Source: Christiangramia crocea
GTDB lineage: Bacteria > Bacteroidota > Bacteroidia > Flavobacteriales > Flavobacteriaceae
Assembly (NCBI RefSeq): GCF_022410465.1
Contig: NZ_JAJSON010000018.1
Location: 1-64,000 of the forward strand
Direction: 5' to 3'
Length of the DNA: 64,000 nucleotides
Under the pieces are notes generated by a model. The model saw nothing but the letters and a program-made list of their open reading frames with translations. It did not search any database and was not told the origin of the DNA. Within the stretch, counting starts at the first letter, position 1. Every line of letters starts with the position of its first letter. Below, piece by piece: positions 1 through 6,594 of the stretch. The translations under genes were made by a program, and so were the position numbers.

Positions 1-3000
1 ATCTGTATTACCTGCAGCATCGGTAGCTGTTACAACTACATTTACAGTTCCGTTATGTTCTGAGAAAACTACTGTTCCCGCAGCTGGTAACTGGACAATA
101 CTCACCGTACAATTATCGGTAGCAACTGAGCCATCTACAAGGTTTGGAACGGTGATACTACATTCGGTATCCAGCACCACTTCCTGATCGGCTTCCGCTG
201 TAAGTACAGGTTCTTCAGTATCTTCAACCGTAACTGTAGCGGTAGCCGAAGATGTATTTCCGTTAACATCAGTCATGTTGAGTGTTACAGTATTTACACC
301 TAAATTATCACAATTGAATTCTGATCTGTCAACAGAAATGGAAGCAATATTACAATTATCAACTGAGCCATTTTCTATACTCAAAATTGAAGAAATGGCT
401 GCATATTTAAAGCTAACGGTAGCCGTATAGCCCGTGGATTGATTAACTGACATTCCTACGATTGCACTGCCTGCTGGCGCATATTGGGTAGTGGTCATAA
501 AATTGGAAGTAGCGGTACCAGACCCACTTATACCATTCATCATTGTATTATTTATGCTGTTTAGATTTCCATTAGCCACTTCGTGCAGGTTTTTACCAAT
601 CCCTTTTATGCCCACGTGAGTTCTGCTAGAAAGCTGATGCTGGTAATCTCCATCTTCAACTTCGAATCCAACCAGGACTTTATTGCCGGTCAACATCTCC
701 GACCTGTACACAGCGGTATTGGAACCACTGAAACATGTTTCTACTGTCTCAGTACTTAGACTACCATCTGCAAGGACCTCTTTACATAATAATCTGAAAT
801 TATCCAGTATCCAACCGGTTGACCCTTCATACCCTACAGCGACATAGCCCTCAGGGCAATCACAATCTACCGGAGTAGGAGTAACTGAGCTGTTTTGAGG
901 CTCAAGTTGTCCGGCCACTGGTCCTATGGAATAGTCACTTCTTATGGAAGCCTGACCATTCTCATCCAAATACACAGTGACATCCTGAGCAATTGCTGTA
1001 GGTGCAGTATTGTCTTCTACAGTCACTGTTGCTGTACAGGTATCGGTTACGTCATCACTATCCGTAATGGTTAGAGTTACTTCATTCTCGCCTATATTGG
1101 AACAGTCAAATGTATCATTATCTATAGCTAAAGTAAATCCGGCCTTATCATCGCTGGACCCGTCATTCACATCATCTGGAGTTATAGTTACAGTACCATT
1201 TGGGCCAAGCTGAGCTGTAAAATTCTGACAGGACGCTACAGGCGCATCGTTGGTATCTTTCATAACTGTATCTGTCGCAGCTGTTCCTTCATTAGAGGAA
1301 GCATCAGTCAGGGTGACCGACAGCGTTAAGGTTCCATCTTCCAGTCCACTTACATCAATTCCACTAATCTGCTCGGTTACCGTAGAAATAGTTCCAGAAC
1401 CGGTTACCTCAGTTCCTCCATTTTCATTGCTAAAGATGTAGTTGTAGGTAGTACCTACTTCGGCATTTGCAAACGTAAAACTGACATCAGTTCCGTTATT
1501 CTCATCAATTGCGTTTTGATTGATGCTTACAGAGTAGCCTGTAGGTGCTTCCACGTCATTCACTGTCACAACAAAACTGCAGGTAGATTTATTCCCTGAA
1601 GCATCGGTGACTTCAAAAGTGTTGGTGGTGATTCCTACTGGAAATTCGCTTCCACTTTTCAGGCCAGCAGTTTGAGTTATATTGCTGGTTTCCACGAACA
1701 CATAACTATCAAAGAAATTGGCTCCATAATGCCCGGTCCAATAACCTCGGTCTGAGCCTCCATGTTCAAAATAGATATATCTCACTCCGCTTCCATAATC
1801 CTTAAATTCCACAGACTCTAATAATGCATCAGTCCCAATACGTTTAGGTGCTGAAGCAGTACCTGAATTATACACGGCTATAGTATTATGATTTGCATCT
1901 CTTAATTCAAACCTTACGAAGTAATTATCCAGTAATTCACCTGAACCGCAATTATTATTCAACCAGTCTGACTGTACTTTTTCCCCAATCTTTATTATGG
2001 GAGACCTATCTAACTGAACTTCAGTAAAGCCGGAAGCCAAGAGATCAATTTCCTGGTACTTCGTATTAGCTACGGCACTTCCATCGCATGTGTTATAAGA
2101 ACTTTTGAACTTCCCACCGGAAGCCATCCAACCACTACCTTCATTCAAGGATACAGTCCATCCGTTCAGATCCTCCGTAGCGTTTGGATTTACCAACAGG
2201 TTTTCTTCACTGCAGGCTTCCACTACTTCAGGCAAGGTATAGTTCACAATTGCCCCATCAACTCCAGGATCATTATCAACTTCTATATCACCTGGACAGG
2301 TGATTGTTGGGCCAATATTATCTTCAACAGTAACTATTGCTGTGCAGGTAGCCTTCTTACCTCCGGCATCGGTAACGGTAAGTGTCACCTTATGATCGCC
2401 AATATCATTACAAGTGAAGGCCTCTGTAACATCTATACTCAAGGTCACATCCCCTTCTGCATCACTGGAGCCGTTATCTATATCTTCTGGAGTAAGCATC
2501 ACCGTACCGTCTTCTCCAAGTTCTGCTGTATAGTTTTGGCAGATAGCCTCTGGAACCGTATTTATTGGAGTGGTGTTTCTGTATAATCTTGAGAAAGGCT
2601 CTGCTGAGTTACCCAAATAAGAATTTATCATTAAATCCTTATCGGAATCTCCATCAATATCTGCAAAAGCGTGATCACCTATCCAATTATCGCCAAACTG
2701 CAATTCTTTACCATCAAAAAAACTACCATCGCCTGAATTAATATAAAATTTCGTCGAATTGGTTCCATCTGATTTTCTACCTGAAATTAAAATATCCAAG
2801 TAACTATCAGAATCAACATCTGTGAATGACAATGATGAACCATAAGCAAATTCAGATGTGAAATCTACCCCCTCGCTAAATAGAGCGTTACCGTCATTTA
2901 AGTATAATTTTGTAGAGTTAGTATAATCTTTTCGGCCTGTTAAAATAATATCTATATCGCCGTCTTGATCTGAATCTGCGAAATCAACATCATCCCCTTT

Positions 3001-4896
3001 AAAACCAATAAATTTTATGGGTGTTGCCAGATTAAAACTGCCATCTCCGTTATTTAGATAAATATGTGTTACTCCATAATGATGTTCACTTTCACCTGTA
3101 AGAAATATATCCTTATAATTATCACCATTCAGGTCAACAAATTGAACTATTGATCTTTGAACACCTTCAATTGATACACCGGTAACTTCAGTAAAGTCTC
3201 CGCCATTATTTTCATATAAAATTGTATTTACTCCTGATGAACCTTCACTACCAGTTATAATTAAATCCAGATCATTATCATTATCTACATCTCCAAATGC
3301 AATATCACCATTAGTCATACCTTTAAAAGATTGTCCTAAATCTTCTTCAAAGTTTGCCGTACCATCATTTAAGTAAAGCTTTGTGATCGTCTCTCCCGTG
3401 CTATATAAATACCCTGAAATCAATAAATCCACATCACCGTCATTATCCACATCGGCAAACTCCTTAGAAGCATTTCCGCTTCCGTTCATAAAATCAGTTT
3501 CAATCAAGCTAAAGCTATCCCCGGTACCGTCATTCAAATACAAATTTGTATAAGATGTACCCCAATCAATAGTTATTGACCTTAATATATCCTGATCACC
3601 ATCATTATCAACATCTGTAAAATCAATATCCCCTTGTGAAGTATTTAAGATGTTGTGTGAAAAATTGGCTTCGCCATCGTTGTAATATAGAAATGATAAT
3701 TCCCCTCCTCTAAAAGAGTTTGCATTTGTACCTGTTATAAGAATATCATTATTATTATCTCCATCTACATCTGCAATCGCTATTGCGCTGTTATAAACTT
3801 CTGGAAGATTATAATTTAAATCTTCAGAGAACTCTCCATTACCATCGTTTAAATATAATTTGTTTATTGATTCATTACCTGAGGTCGCAATTTTACCCAT
3901 TATAAAAAAATCCTGATCATCATCTCCATCTATATCACCAAATGCCATATCTCCATCTACAACTCCTAAGAAACTTGCATGCTTTGTAAAATTTCCTAAA
4001 CCATCATTTAAATATAAATCGCTTTCTATATCGTAGGAACTGGTTCTTCCTGATAACACAGCATCCATATCATTATCTCCATCCACATCGGCAAAAGTTA
4101 TCAAGGCTTTTTTATTATAATAATTACCGTCATACCCTTTACCTTCAAAACCTATTGAAGAACTGAATTGACCATTACCATCATTTACGTAAATATGAGT
4201 ATTCAAGTAAGAATAAAACCCAGTAGGGTCCGGTATTAAATAAGAGCCGGTATGTATAAAATCTATATCTGAATCTCCATCAATATCAGCTGCTGCAAGT
4301 CCCGAATTAGACTTTCCAAAAAAATTAGGGTTGTCATTCAGAACGAAATTATTACCCCCATTATTTATATATAGCTCAAGTATTGTTTCTCCAGAAGAGT
4401 TTTCTCCGGAAATAAGAAGATCCGGTAGATTGTTCCCATCAAAATCTTGAAAAATTATAGAATTATTCTCCAATCCTGGAAAAGGAGTTCCTGTTACTTC
4501 TGAAAAGTCTCCAGAACCGTCATTAATATAAAGCTTAGTGAAATTAGGCGAATACTCAAGATATGAAGAAATGATAATATCCTGATCATTATCCCCATCT
4601 GCATCTCCAAATGCAACCGACGATCTAGGTCCACCCCAGAAAGGGGTGCCATCTACTTTGGAAAAGTTTCCAAAACCATCATTTTTATACAATTGGGCTC
4701 CTCCTGAGCCAACCAATAGCACATCAAGATCATTATCATTATCGATATCTGCAAATTCTGTATCACCATTGCTAGTGAGTTCAAAATTGCTAGAAATCTG
4801 TGAAGTAATCTCCTCAAAAATCTGAGCCTGCGAAATCTGCCAGGCCAAACCAAAAAATAAGAGAATTAAAAATTTTAAAAAGTAATTTTGTTTCAT
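1..4896 (-). CDS. Giant secreted FG-GAP/VCBS repeat protein with HYR/Ig-like modules and an FBA lectin-like domain (3' end outside window)
   Basis: The frame starts at an ATG at 4896 and stays open to the window edge, giving at least 1632 residues. A signal peptide occupies about residues 1-25 (hydrophobic LKFLILLFFGLAW, then SQAQ). About residues 45-760 hold fourteen FG-GAP/VCBS-like repeats of roughly 50 residues, each with an Asp-rich calcium-loop motif such as FGDADGDNDQD or FADIDNDND. From about residue 775 come HYR/Ig-like modules with the signatures TVTVEDN and ITCPGDIEV. An FBA-like domain sits at about 895-1068, and an unassigned domain with CPEGYVAVGYEG at about 1345-1499. This architecture fits a large exported surface protein that binds glycans or polymers. 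The C-terminus, where a type IX sorting domain would be expected, lies outside the window, so that route is inference. Confidence 0.9.
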   Translation of the reverse strand, partial: MKQNYFLKFLILLFFGLAWQISQAQIFEEITSQISSNFELTSNGDTEFADIDNDNDLDVLLVGSGGAQLYKNDGFGNFSKVDGTPFWGGPRSSVAFGDADGDNDQDIIISSYLEYSPNFTKLYINDGSGDFSEVTGTPFPGLENNSIIFQDFDGNNLPDLLISGENSSGETILELYINNGGNNFVLNDNPNFFGKSNSGLAAADIDGDSDIDFIHTGSYLIPDPTGFYSYLNTHIYVNDGNGQFSSSIGFEGKGYDGNYYNKKALITFADVDGDNDMDAVLSGRTSSYDIESDLYLNDGLGNFTKHASFLGVVDGDMAFGDIDGDDDQDFFIMGKIATSGNESINKLYLNDGNGEFSEDLNYNLPEVYNSAIAIADVDGDNNNDILITGTNANSFRGGELSFLYYNDGEANFSHNILNTSQGDIDFTDVDNDGDQDILRSITIDWGTSYTNLYLNDGTGDSFSLIETDFMNGSGNASKEFADVDNDGDVDLLISGYLYSTGETITKLYLNDGTANFEEDLGQSFKGMTNGDIAFGDVDNDNDLDLIITGSEGSSGVNTILYENNGGDFTEVTGVSIEGVQRSIVQFVDLNGDNYKDIFLTGESEHHYGVTHIYLNNGDGSFNLATPIKFIGFKGDDVDFADSDQDGDIDIILTGRKDYTNSTKLYLNDGNALFSEGVDFTSEFAYGSSLSFTDVDSDSYLDILISGRKSDGTNSTKFYINSGDGSFFDGKELQFGDNWIGDHAFADIDGDSDKDLMINSYLGNSAEPFSRLYRNTTPINTVPEAICQNYTAELGEDGTVMLTPEDIDNGSSDAEGDVTLSIDVTEAFTCNDIGDHKVTLTVTDAGGKKATCTAIVTVEDNIGPTITCPGDIEVDNDPGVDGAIVNYTLPEVVEACSEENLLVNPNATEDLNGWTVSLNEGSGWMASGGKFKSSYNTCDGSAVANTKYQEIDLLASGFTEVQLDRSPIIKIGEKVQSDWLNNNCGSGELLDNYFVRFELRDANHNTIAVYNSGTASAPKRIGTDALLESVEFKDYGSGVRYIYFEHGGSDRGYWTGHYGANFFDSYVFVETSNITQTAGLKSGSEFPVGITTNTFEVTDASGNKSTCSFVVTVNDVEAPTGYSVSINQNAIDENNGTDVSFTFANAEVGTTYNYIFSNENGGTEVTGSGTISTVTEQISGIDVSGLEDGTLTLSVTLTDASSNEGTAATDTVMKDTNDAPVASCQNFTAQLGPNGTVTITPDDVNDGSSDDKAGFTLAIDNDTFDCSNIGENEVTLTITDSDDVTDTCTATVTVEDNTAPTAIAQDVTVYLDENGQASIRSDYSIGPVAGQLEPQNSSVTPTPVDCDCPEGYVAVGYEGSTGWILDNFRLLCKEVLADGSLSTETVETCFSGSNTAVYRSEMLTGNKVLVGFEVEDGDYQHQLSSRTHVGIKGIGKNLHEVANGNLNSINNTMMNGISGSGTATSNFMTTTQYAPAGSAIVGMSVNQSTGYTATVSFKYAAISSILSIENGSVDNCNIASISVDRSEFNCDNLGVNTVTLNMTDVNGNTSSATATVTVEDTEEPVLTAEADQEVVLDTECSITVPNLVDGSVATDNCTVSIVQLPAAGTVVFSEHNGTVNVVVTATDAAGNTD
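1687..2205 (-). other. F-box-associated (FBA / NCCRP1-like) domain inside the giant protein
   Basis: Translated on the minus strand, about residues 895-1068 reproduce the FBA fold sequence known from eukaryotic Fbs (FBXO2-type) and NCCRP1 proteins. Landmarks in order are DLNGWTVS, KYQEIDL, the SDW of the KDWY-like motif, FELRDAN, DYGSGVRYIYFEHGG and GYWTGHYGA. The last two blocks match the animal consensus almost word for word (DYGPGVRF..FEHGG, YWKGWFGA). In Fbs1 the Tyr-Trp of that last block contacts the chitobiose core of high-mannose N-glycans, and the Tyr-Trp pair is present here. The adjacent Lys is replaced by Thr. Family assignment rests on recalled sequences, without a profile search. 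Confidence 0.82.
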
Positions 4897-5246
4897 CAAG
4901 GCATATTTAGGTTAATATTAGGTTACAAGTTTCGGGTAATGTTAAAAATTTAACAATACCGCTTTTGAGGTATTAACATTTGTTAAAATAATAGAGATTA
5001 TTTTGGAGTAGGGCGGCGCGAATTTATGTTTTTTTTAACTTATTATCCAACAAAAAAATCGCCAAAAAGTAAAAAAAACGCAATTAAATCTTTAAAATAT
5101 AGGCATTCGAAAGATTTTACTTACAAAATTTAAATTATTAAAGAAGGCTACTGTTTCTTAAAAAAAATAAAATTTTATTTCTCTCGCTGCCGTCTAAAGA
5201 AAATCTACTTTCAGCCTCTCGGTTTATCTTAAAATGTAGAAATAAA
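4897..5246. other. AT-rich intergenic region upstream of the giant gene
   Basis: This stretch carries no plausible gene. It holds the upstream region of the giant FG-GAP gene, read on the minus strand. Near 4902-4927 a short unit TTAGGTTA is repeated directly (ttaggttaatattaggtta on the plus strand), immediately upstream of the start codon. It could be a regulator site or part of a promoter, but I found no convincing TTG/TAnnTTTG pair. The rest is A/T-rich with homopolymer runs. Confidence 0.4.
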
Positions 5247-5304: not shown

Positions 5305-6594
5305 TTAAAGTGTCTCAGCGACTTTCCCCACCTCCTCTATCGTCTTATCAAGATCATCATAAGAAAGAGCCTCACTGATAAACCAGGTCTCAAAAGCACT
5401 TGGAGCGATATAGATCCCGTTTTCAAGCAGGCCGTGGAAGAACTTATTGAATTTTCCAGTAGAAGCAGATCTTACTGAAGACTGGAAGTCGGTCACCGGT
5501 TCTTTACCAAAATGAACGGAGATCATGGAGCCTATACGGTTAATGCTAAAAGAGACACCTGCCTCATTCAAAACCTTATCCATTCCCTTATGGAGATATT
5601 CAGTCTTTTTATCTATGCTTTCAAAGATTTCAAGATTATCATGAAGTTCAGTAAGCATCGCAAAGCCTGCAGCCATTGCCAATGGATTCCCGCTTAAGGT
5701 CCCTGCCTGATAAACCGGCCCATCCGGAGCAAGATGATTCATAATTTCATTTCTTGCGGCAAAAGCTCCAACCGGAAGTCCACCTCCTATCACCTTTCCG
5801 AAACAAACGATATCGGCATTCACTCCCAGTCTTTCCTGCACACCGCCGGCGGCCTGTCGGAAGCCGGTCATTACCTCATCGAATACCAAAAGGATTCCGG
5901 TTTCATCACATATCTTTCTAAGACCTTCCAGAAATCCTTTAACAGGCGGGATGCATCCCATATTTCCTGCCACGGGCTCAAGAATGATACAGGCAATCTC
6001 ATCTTTATTGGCCTCCACCAGTTCCTTTACGTTTTCAAGATCGTTGTATTTAGCCAGTAAAGTATCTTTTGCGGTTCCCTGAGTTACCCCCGGACTATTG
6101 GGAGTTCCAAAGGTCATTGCTCCACTCCCGGCCTGGATCAGAAAGGAATCGCTATGACCATGATAGCAGCCGGCAAATTTGATGATCTTTTCCTTTCCTG
6201 TGAAGCCGCGTGCAAGCCGAACCGCACTCATACAGGCTTCGGTACCCGAATTAACCATTCTTATCTTATCTATGTTCGGGACCATCTTTACAGCAAGTTC
6301 AGCTATCTTCGTTTCAAGTTCTGTTGGCGTTCCAAAAGAAGTTCCTTTTTTAGCTTTTTCGATCACCGCATCCAATACCGGCTTATGAGCATGGCCCAGA
6401 ATTAGCGGCCCCCACGAATTGATGTAGTCAATTAGTTTATTTCCGTCCTCATCATATAAATAAGCACCTTTGGCCCTCTCTATAAAAACCGGTTCTCCCC
6501 CAACTGCTTTAAACGCTCTCACTGGAGAATTTACTCCGCCCGGAATTACTTTTTTTGCTTCTGAAAATAACTGACTACTCCTCTTATAAATCAT
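5305..6594 (-). CDS. hemL: Glutamate-1-semialdehyde 2,1-aminomutase
   Basis: This PLP enzyme converts glutamate-1-semialdehyde into 5-aminolevulinate, the entry to tetrapyrrole and heme synthesis by the C5 route, in the cytoplasm. At 429 residues it has the usual family length. The N-terminal [11 protein letters not shown], the substrate-loop [16 protein letters not shown] and the FDEVMTGFR block are intact. The PLP lysine is K267 in [15 protein letters not shown]. The ATG start fits the conserved N-terminus. It appears monocistronic: a strong terminator follows and a degenerate palindrome lies upstream. Confidence 0.97.

Follow-up and report, generated by a model that had tools for sequence, protein, structure and literature searches.

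An FBA (Fbs-type) domain set within a split Ig-like module of a giant bacterial surface protein: a candidate lectin tip

Introduction

Fbs proteins are cytosolic readers of N-glycans for degradation. The stretch of DNA analysed here, 64,000 nucleotides from Christiangramia crocea (the window; G000:C9:1-64000), encodes a domain of the same family within a giant surface protein. What does such a domain do in a protein of this type, and how did it come to be there? The initial annotation, made from the sequence, had described it as a eukaryote-like lectin domain, possibly gained by transfer or pointing to an ancient secreted origin of the fold.

Results

The gene of the giant runs on the minus strand, and the contig edge truncates it. 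The open frame has 1633 codons from a TTG at 4899; the first ATG, at 4896, is probably the true start, giving a protein of at least 1632 residues. Its parts are listed below, where "SD-type" is our own name for a module.

1 to 4896 (-): gene of the giant surface protein, running off the contig at window position 1, where its 3′ end is lost (open frame)
4822 to 4896 (-): putative signal peptide, start MKQNYF (translations)
2590 to 4782 (-): FG-GAP repeat region, approximate ends (PF13517, E 1e-54, 11 stretches)
2308 to 2559 (-): unsplit Ig-like (SD-type) module (own HMM, protein 781-864, profile 1-83, 83.4 bits)
2203 to 2304 (-): N-terminal half of a split HYR module (own HYR HMM, protein 866-899, profile 2-36, 12.3 bits)
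1684 to 2202 (-): FBA (Fbs-type) domain (PF04300; PDB sequence and fold matches)
1543 to 1674 (-): C-terminal half of the same HYR module (own HYR HMM, protein 1076-1119, profile 39-82, 44.0 bits; PF02494 41-81)
1000 to 1245 (-): unsplit Ig-like (SD-type) module (own HMM, protein 1219-1300, profile 2-83, 120.3 bits)
934 to 1008 (-): N-terminal portion of another split Ig-like module (own HMM, protein 1298-1322, profile 1-25, 16.9 bits)
382 to 933 (-): nested 184-aa domain, no assigned family (74 % identical copy in the G692 giant)
208 to 381 (-): C-terminal portion of this other split module (own HMM, protein 1507-1564, profile 26-83, 60.6 bits)

In a Pfam scan of the sequenced part of the giant (E up to 0.01), only FG-GAP_3, FBA, FG-GAP and HYR were matched; there was no F-box and no RTX family. 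These parts support the extracellular-type architecture that had been proposed for the host protein.

The FBA domain is real and lies far beyond a chance match. PF04300 aligned to window 1693-2208 over profile positions 7-175 of 175, with 77.3 bits against a cut-off of 32.4, so that the family assignment of the initial annotation holds over nearly the full profile. A search of the source genome with this family gave one match (82.7 bits), and none of 14 control genomes matched; NCBIfam returned nothing on the domain. When the domain was compared with the PDB by phmmer (E up to 10), eight distinct sequences were found, all of them FBXO2, FBXO6 or FBXO44, with a best E of 5.9e-18. An AlphaFold model of the HYR-FBA-HYR stretch, computed from an alignment with 12 further bacterial rows, had a mean pLDDT of 76.0 and a pTM of 0.68, and ten-residue blocks of the FBA part ranged from 52 to 98 in pLDDT. 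Searched against the PDB with Foldseek, this model retrieved Fbs1, Fbs2 and FBG3 at ranks 1-10 (E 3.7e-13 to 1.9e-11; TM by target length 0.52-0.76), with the next match at E 4.2e-05. The predicted fold is thus the Fbs β-sandwich that had been anticipated. All four motif blocks named in the initial annotation are present on the minus strand: SDW (1963-1971), FELRDAN (1891-1911), DYGSGVRYIYFEHGG (1756-1800) and GYWTGHYGA (1720-1746). Their order had been said to follow the FBA family; in a MAFFT alignment, however, SDW and the KDW of the FBXO rows occupy different columns.

Residues that line the sugar site of Fbs1 can be placed on the window domain as follows, with Fbs1 numbers taken from the chain positions of 2e31.

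2095 to 2097 (-): Tyr at the Fbs1 Phe177 position (alignment A4, motif position; role from PMC4603797)
1738 to 1743 (-): Tyr-Trp at the Fbs1 Tyr279-Trp280 positions, then Thr where Fbs1 has Lys (alignment A4, motif position)

In Fbs1, Phe177, Tyr279 and Trp280 make GlcNAc-GlcNAc contacts that are essential for binding (PMC4603797). The aromatic triad of the window domain is Tyr/Tyr/Trp, and the Tyr-Trp of the chitobiose pocket is kept, as had been noticed from the sequence. Across all 16 bacterial FBA rows of alignment A4, the degenerate row L039a included, the Phe177 position is occupied by Tyr, Phe or Trp in 14 and by His in two, the Tyr279 position by Tyr in 12, and the Trp280 position by Trp in 15, L039a being the row without it. 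Lys281 is kept in none of the 16. Fbs2/FBXO6 has Ala at this position in the same alignment, and PDB entry 8zuh is titled as its Man3GlcNAc2 complex, so the loss of Lys281 need not exclude binding. The window row is also gapped over most of the β2-β3 loop, which in Fbs1 carries the mannose contact Asn159. In mouse Fbs1 this residue hydrogen-bonds a mannose, and the S155G exchange at the equivalent residue of human Fbs1 left RNase B binding unchanged (PMC5457524). The triad of the window domain is the same as that of FBG3, for which no sugar binding was detected and in which the loops are arranged otherwise (PMC4603797); FBXO44 is likewise reported, in a review, to be without sugar binding (PMC6389600). 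Because FBG3 keeps this triad without binding sugar, we infer binding here and do not read it directly from the residues. A sugar pocket in the window domain is plausible from the aligned positions.

The FBA domain had been described as lying between the FG-GAP repeats and HYR modules. The profile matches place it instead inside one HYR (Ig-like) module: positions 2-36 of the HYR profile match before the domain and 39-82 after it. The profiles were our own, made from four unsplit HYR and seven unsplit SD-type modules, and were applied first to five giants and afterwards to one more. All 14 tested internal cargo domains of these six giants are flanked by two partial Ig-like matches, a count that is to be read with the facts that the 11 modules were entered by hand, that eight of them came from giants then searched, and that no shuffled control stands behind the split-module scores. 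The cargo comprises FBA, LamG and SUEL lectin domains and the 184-aa domain without assigned family.

The position of the break may depend on the cargo. The window 184-aa domain (382-933) divides the SD profile into 1-25 and 26-83, and its copy in the G692 giant into 7-24 and 27-83. SUEL domains divide it into 1-44 and 45-83 (G686) and into 1-37 and 46-83 (G679). For LamG the pairs are 1-52 and 55-82 (G241), 2-56 and 52-82 (G681), 7-56 and 54-83 (G686), 2-71 and 52-83 as well as 1-58 and 56-82 (G679), and 1-53 and 54-83 as well as 1-58 and 56-82 (G692). On the HYR profile, the FBA domain of G241 is preceded by 4-43 and followed by 52-82, leaving 8 positions uncovered, and that of G681 by 5-39 and 52-82, leaving 12. 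If each family has its own loop, this would lie roughly at profile positions 24-27 for the 184-aa domain, 37-46 for SUEL, 36-52 for FBA and 52-58 for LamG, with one LamG joint blurred. Single joints are approximate: the left HYR halves are weak (12.3 bits for the window giant, 3.6 and 1.4 bits for the other two with FBA), the 2-71/52-83 LamG pair overlaps by 20 positions, and positions at the FBA domains are uncovered. Both HYR halves are poor in the AlphaFold model, with pLDDT blocks of 44-66 in one and 56-71 in the other, and the evidence for the split therefore comes from the sequence profiles rather than from this model.

One further LamG, the first of P0005, was judged by eye only and stands outside the 14; there, too, a module is interrupted. 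Regions that follow the signal peptide, namely FG-GAP in one giant and F5/8C and Gly-rich regions in two each, and a TSP_3 stretch near the G241 tail were not counted as internal cargo, and no nesting was seen in them. By eye, no nesting is evident in the other 13 of the 16 bacterial FBA domains. SUEL lectin domains (PF02140) occur in two of 24 genomes of the genus, nested in Ig-like modules of the L016 and L020 giants. In an FBA giant of Endozoicomonas elysicola (L047:5585-11404), LamG seems, by eye, to interrupt a VCBS-like repeat.

The 184-aa domain contains Cys, and its G692 copy is likewise nested in an Ig-like module. No Pfam family matched it above cut-off, and the single PDB sequence match had an E of 1.4. 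Among 299 genomes of the family sample, only the window's own copy was matched, G692 not being among the matches. An AlphaFold model of this domain alone was set aside (mean pLDDT 34.6).

Beyond the start of the giant lies its 5′ neighbour, which we used as the anchor of a variable locus and as the query for 24 genomes of the genus.

5305 to 6594 (-): gene taken from its sequence to be hemL; 5′ neighbour of the giant

A full-length hemL was found in 23 of the 24 genomes, G697 being the one without it. The downstream side of these 23 loci was read as lists of open reading frames with a floor of 300 or 450 residues. A giant follows hemL in five of them (G000, G681, G686, G679 and G692). In the other 18, which were read over about 14-20 kb in 17 cases and over 6.9 kb in G696, the next long frame is a gene of 502-508 residues on the opposite strand. 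The cargo of the five giants varies: FG-GAP, FBA and the 184-aa domain in the window giant; LamG and FBA in G681; F5/8C, LamG and SUEL in G686 and G679, the F5/8C of G686 being below the Pfam cut-off; and LamG three times with a copy of the 184-aa domain in G692. The start MKQNYF is common to four of the five (G000, G681, G686 and G679) and to the giant of G241, which belongs to another genus; G692 starts differently. The N-terminal ends of the G686 giant (145 residues) and of the window giant (165 residues) were compared by BLASTP, and only the first six residues aligned.

In G686, G679 and G692 the giant is followed by a PorV gene (PF19572), and in G681 the contig ends within the giant. The missing end of the window gene is likely to be G000:C25:2-1150; the assignment bridges the gap between the contigs by similarity and gene order and not by sequence. 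This fragment is 90 % identical to the tail of the G686 giant over 306 residues and is followed by a PorV-type gene (PF19572) that is 94 % identical to that of G686. Counted in this way, with the window's own included through the C25 assignment, PorV follows the giant in four of five loci. A fragment of 1435 residues on contig C14 had been considered as the missing 3′ end and was rejected, as C25 fits the tail of a hemL giant at 90 % identity. That contig (L013:1-7112) carries another giant, which runs in from the contig start and has HYR modules, then a PorP_SprF gene (PF11751) and a gene read as OmpA-like.

The FBA domains of G681 and G241, from two genera (L005:10872-11345 and L015:8477-8938), share 80 % identity. 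Within one genus and at one locus, the window and G681 domains share only 39 %. The copies at the locus are thus not simple orthologues, and exchange of FBA domains at the locus would be the easier reading. In G692, a copy of the last 93 nucleotides of hemL is present beyond the giant-PorV pair (L027:10394-10486 (minus) and L027:19438-19530 (minus)). It is identical at 85 of 93 positions, including all of the first 48, as after integration or recombination at the gene end. By eye, no similar copy was seen in the stretches read of G686 and G679.

Relatives of the domain are rare in the genus, family and phylum samples and scattered in other bacteria. Including the window's own, FBA domains were found in two of the 24 genomes of the genus and two of 299 in the family. 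The phylum sample of 395 genomes gave two matches, the window's own and one in G524; the latter (19.6 bits, below cut-off, with one internal stop) was dropped. A scan with the alignment, run over genome_contigs (described as covering 84,980 species), used only two peptide patterns and so gives a lower bound; it yielded at least 12 FBA loci from 48 stretches. These are four from Endozoicomonas and one each from C. echinicola DSM 19838 (NZ_AUHG01000010.1), a Flavobacteriales MAG, a Saprospiraceae MAG (two domains), Microcoleus, Rhizobium sp. FY34 (two domains), two Verrucomicrobiota MAGs and a record labelled "Bacterium" that groups with them. FBA domains thus occur in Bacteroidota, Pseudomonadota, Verrucomicrobiota and Cyanobacteriota. 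A single-protein scan of genome_contigs gave 20 pattern stretches and no relatives, phages and plasmids gave no FBA match, and among viral contigs none of 32 stretches did. Most of the eight bacterial FBA proteins or parts that were scanned have Por_Secre_tail, cadherin-like, RTX or Ig-like companions, and bacterial FBA domains therefore appear to sit mostly in secreted-looking proteins. In Rhizobium sp. FY34 (L040:9959-12244), two FBA domains precede a trypsin-like stretch (Trypsin_2 below cut-off); the first gives 128 bits against Fbs1, and no signal was seen.

Two trees were calculated, the first with 19 rows, three of them vertebrate, and with neither an outgroup nor invertebrate, protist or fungal rows. 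The three vertebrate rows grouped together (100/98), with Rhizobium adjoining (94/88); in the second tree, from which the degenerate L039a was left out, the Rhizobium-vertebrate branch had 96/90. Only the Rhizobium pair groups with the vertebrate rows. The window row is on a long branch, unplaced among the bacterial rows, and does not join the vertebrate rows. Forcing it to join them cost 6.38 log units, with a p-AU of 0.052 that is borderline and does not firmly reject the grouping, and forcing it together with the two other Flavobacteriaceae rows cost 2.23 (p-AU 0.349). With FBA domains in four bacterial phyla and the window row apart from the vertebrates, "eukaryote-like" was a misleading description. 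The ancient secreted origin raised by the initial annotation is compatible with a tree of this sampling.

Discussion

We consider it probable, with some reserve, that this FBA-fold module is the ligand-binding tip, most likely a lectin, of a giant adhesin exported by the type IX system, held in a loop of a HYR module. Insertion of the domain into one loop of this Ig-like module would keep both of its ends together in the scaffold and point the pocket away from the stalk. In RTX adhesins, split Ig-like domains keep the two ends of the ligand-binding domain on the same side and make its site face outward (PMC12077191, PMC10865825). The loops that differ at the sugar site between Fbs1 and FBG3 lie opposite the Skp1-binding side (PMC4603797), and by analogy a nested FBA domain would show its pocket outward. 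The giant would serve as a surface adhesin exported by the type IX system, with FBA as its binding tip. As a first guess, the sugar may be a GlcNAc-containing glycan or a chitin-like fragment. In related species, the place downstream of hemL holds giants with other cargo, and species may in this way change what they bind.

The identity of the ligand is where the main competing explanation differs. The domain could bind a protein and serve partner recognition on the surface, as reported for FBG3/FBXO44. It has the Tyr/Tyr/Trp triad of the non-binding FBG3, it has Thr at the Lys281 position, and its β2-β3 loop is largely gone. Set against this, 15 of the 16 bacterial rows have Trp where Fbs1 has Trp280, and the sister giants usually carry LamG and SUEL-type domains, which points to glycans. 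We regard protein binding as possible, though clearly the less probable outcome. That the domain binds no ligand and is structural filler in a repeat-rich spacer would fit the variability of the giants and its rarity in the genus and family; however, distant bacterial rows, with 34-43 % identity to the window row, for the most part retain the aromatics of the pocket, and we think a filler improbable.

A lectin tip could also have reached the giant recently from an animal host. The similarity to vertebrate FBXO2 is clear, and C. echinicola, a member of the genus, comes from a sea urchin; both favour this origin. The long, unplaced branch of the window row, away from the vertebrates (with the borderline p-AU), the presence of FBA domains in four bacterial phyla, and a GC content of the domain (0.41) equal to that of the window (0.407) all argue against it. 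The transfer suggested by the initial annotation is thus not supported as a recent gain from animals, even if the forced topology was not firmly rejected, and we hold such a gain to be very improbable.

The reading of the FBA domain as a binding tip can be extended to a broader model, which we offer tentatively and with considerable doubt. The hemL locus may be a lectin-exchange platform of type IX adhesins: Ig-like modules would serve as sockets, every family of cargo would use a loop of its own, and cargo would pass from one species to another. Secreted bacterial FBA tips would then be an old lectin family, and the cytosolic Fbs ubiquitin-ligase subunits a domesticated branch of it. The bacterial relatives, from four phyla and mostly secreted-looking, provide material on the origin of the Fbs sugar reader and could be a source of small lectins for work on N-glycans or chitin. 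A split-module rule would allow binding tips in type IX giants to be found by sequence, as for RTX adhesins. In a search of mainly open-access literature, covering titles and abstract starts without preprints, we recognised nothing on bacterial FBA domains and no split domains for type IX adhesins.

Giants exported by the type IX system with a PorP/SprF partner, of the SprB/SprF kind, are known. The FBA giant of G241 shares with them a CHU_C / T9SS type B tail and a following PorP_SprF gene (PF11751); the hemL giants instead have a PorV-type neighbour, and searches of the three complete hemL giants and of the C25 fragment gave no catalogued type IX tail.

Compared with the sugar-binding domain of Fbs1/FBXO2 (PF04300; 1umh, 1umi, 2e31, 2rj2), the window domain has the same fold, a nearly full profile and the pocket Tyr-Trp. 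It differs in the short β2-β3 loop and the Thr at the Lys281 position, and its protein has no F-box in the sequenced part, is of extracellular type and presents the domain in a split HYR module. In RTX adhesins, ligand-binding domains bud from split Ig-like domains, and glycan binding has been measured (PMC12077191, PMC10865825). The window giant shares with AhLap, FrhA and MpIBP a cargo or binding domain that interrupts an Ig-like domain, and several different cargo or binding domains per fibre (PMC12077191, PMC10865825). The main texts of these two papers contain no mention of "type IX" or of "Bacteroid". Those adhesins are type I cargo, whereas the window giant has HYR and SD-type modules and a PorV neighbour; the Pfam scan, which covered its sequenced part and the C25 fragment on either side of the contig gap, found no RTX family there. 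The window holds a real FBA domain in an unusual place, in an architecture that follows a principle known from another secretion class and is novel in its combination.
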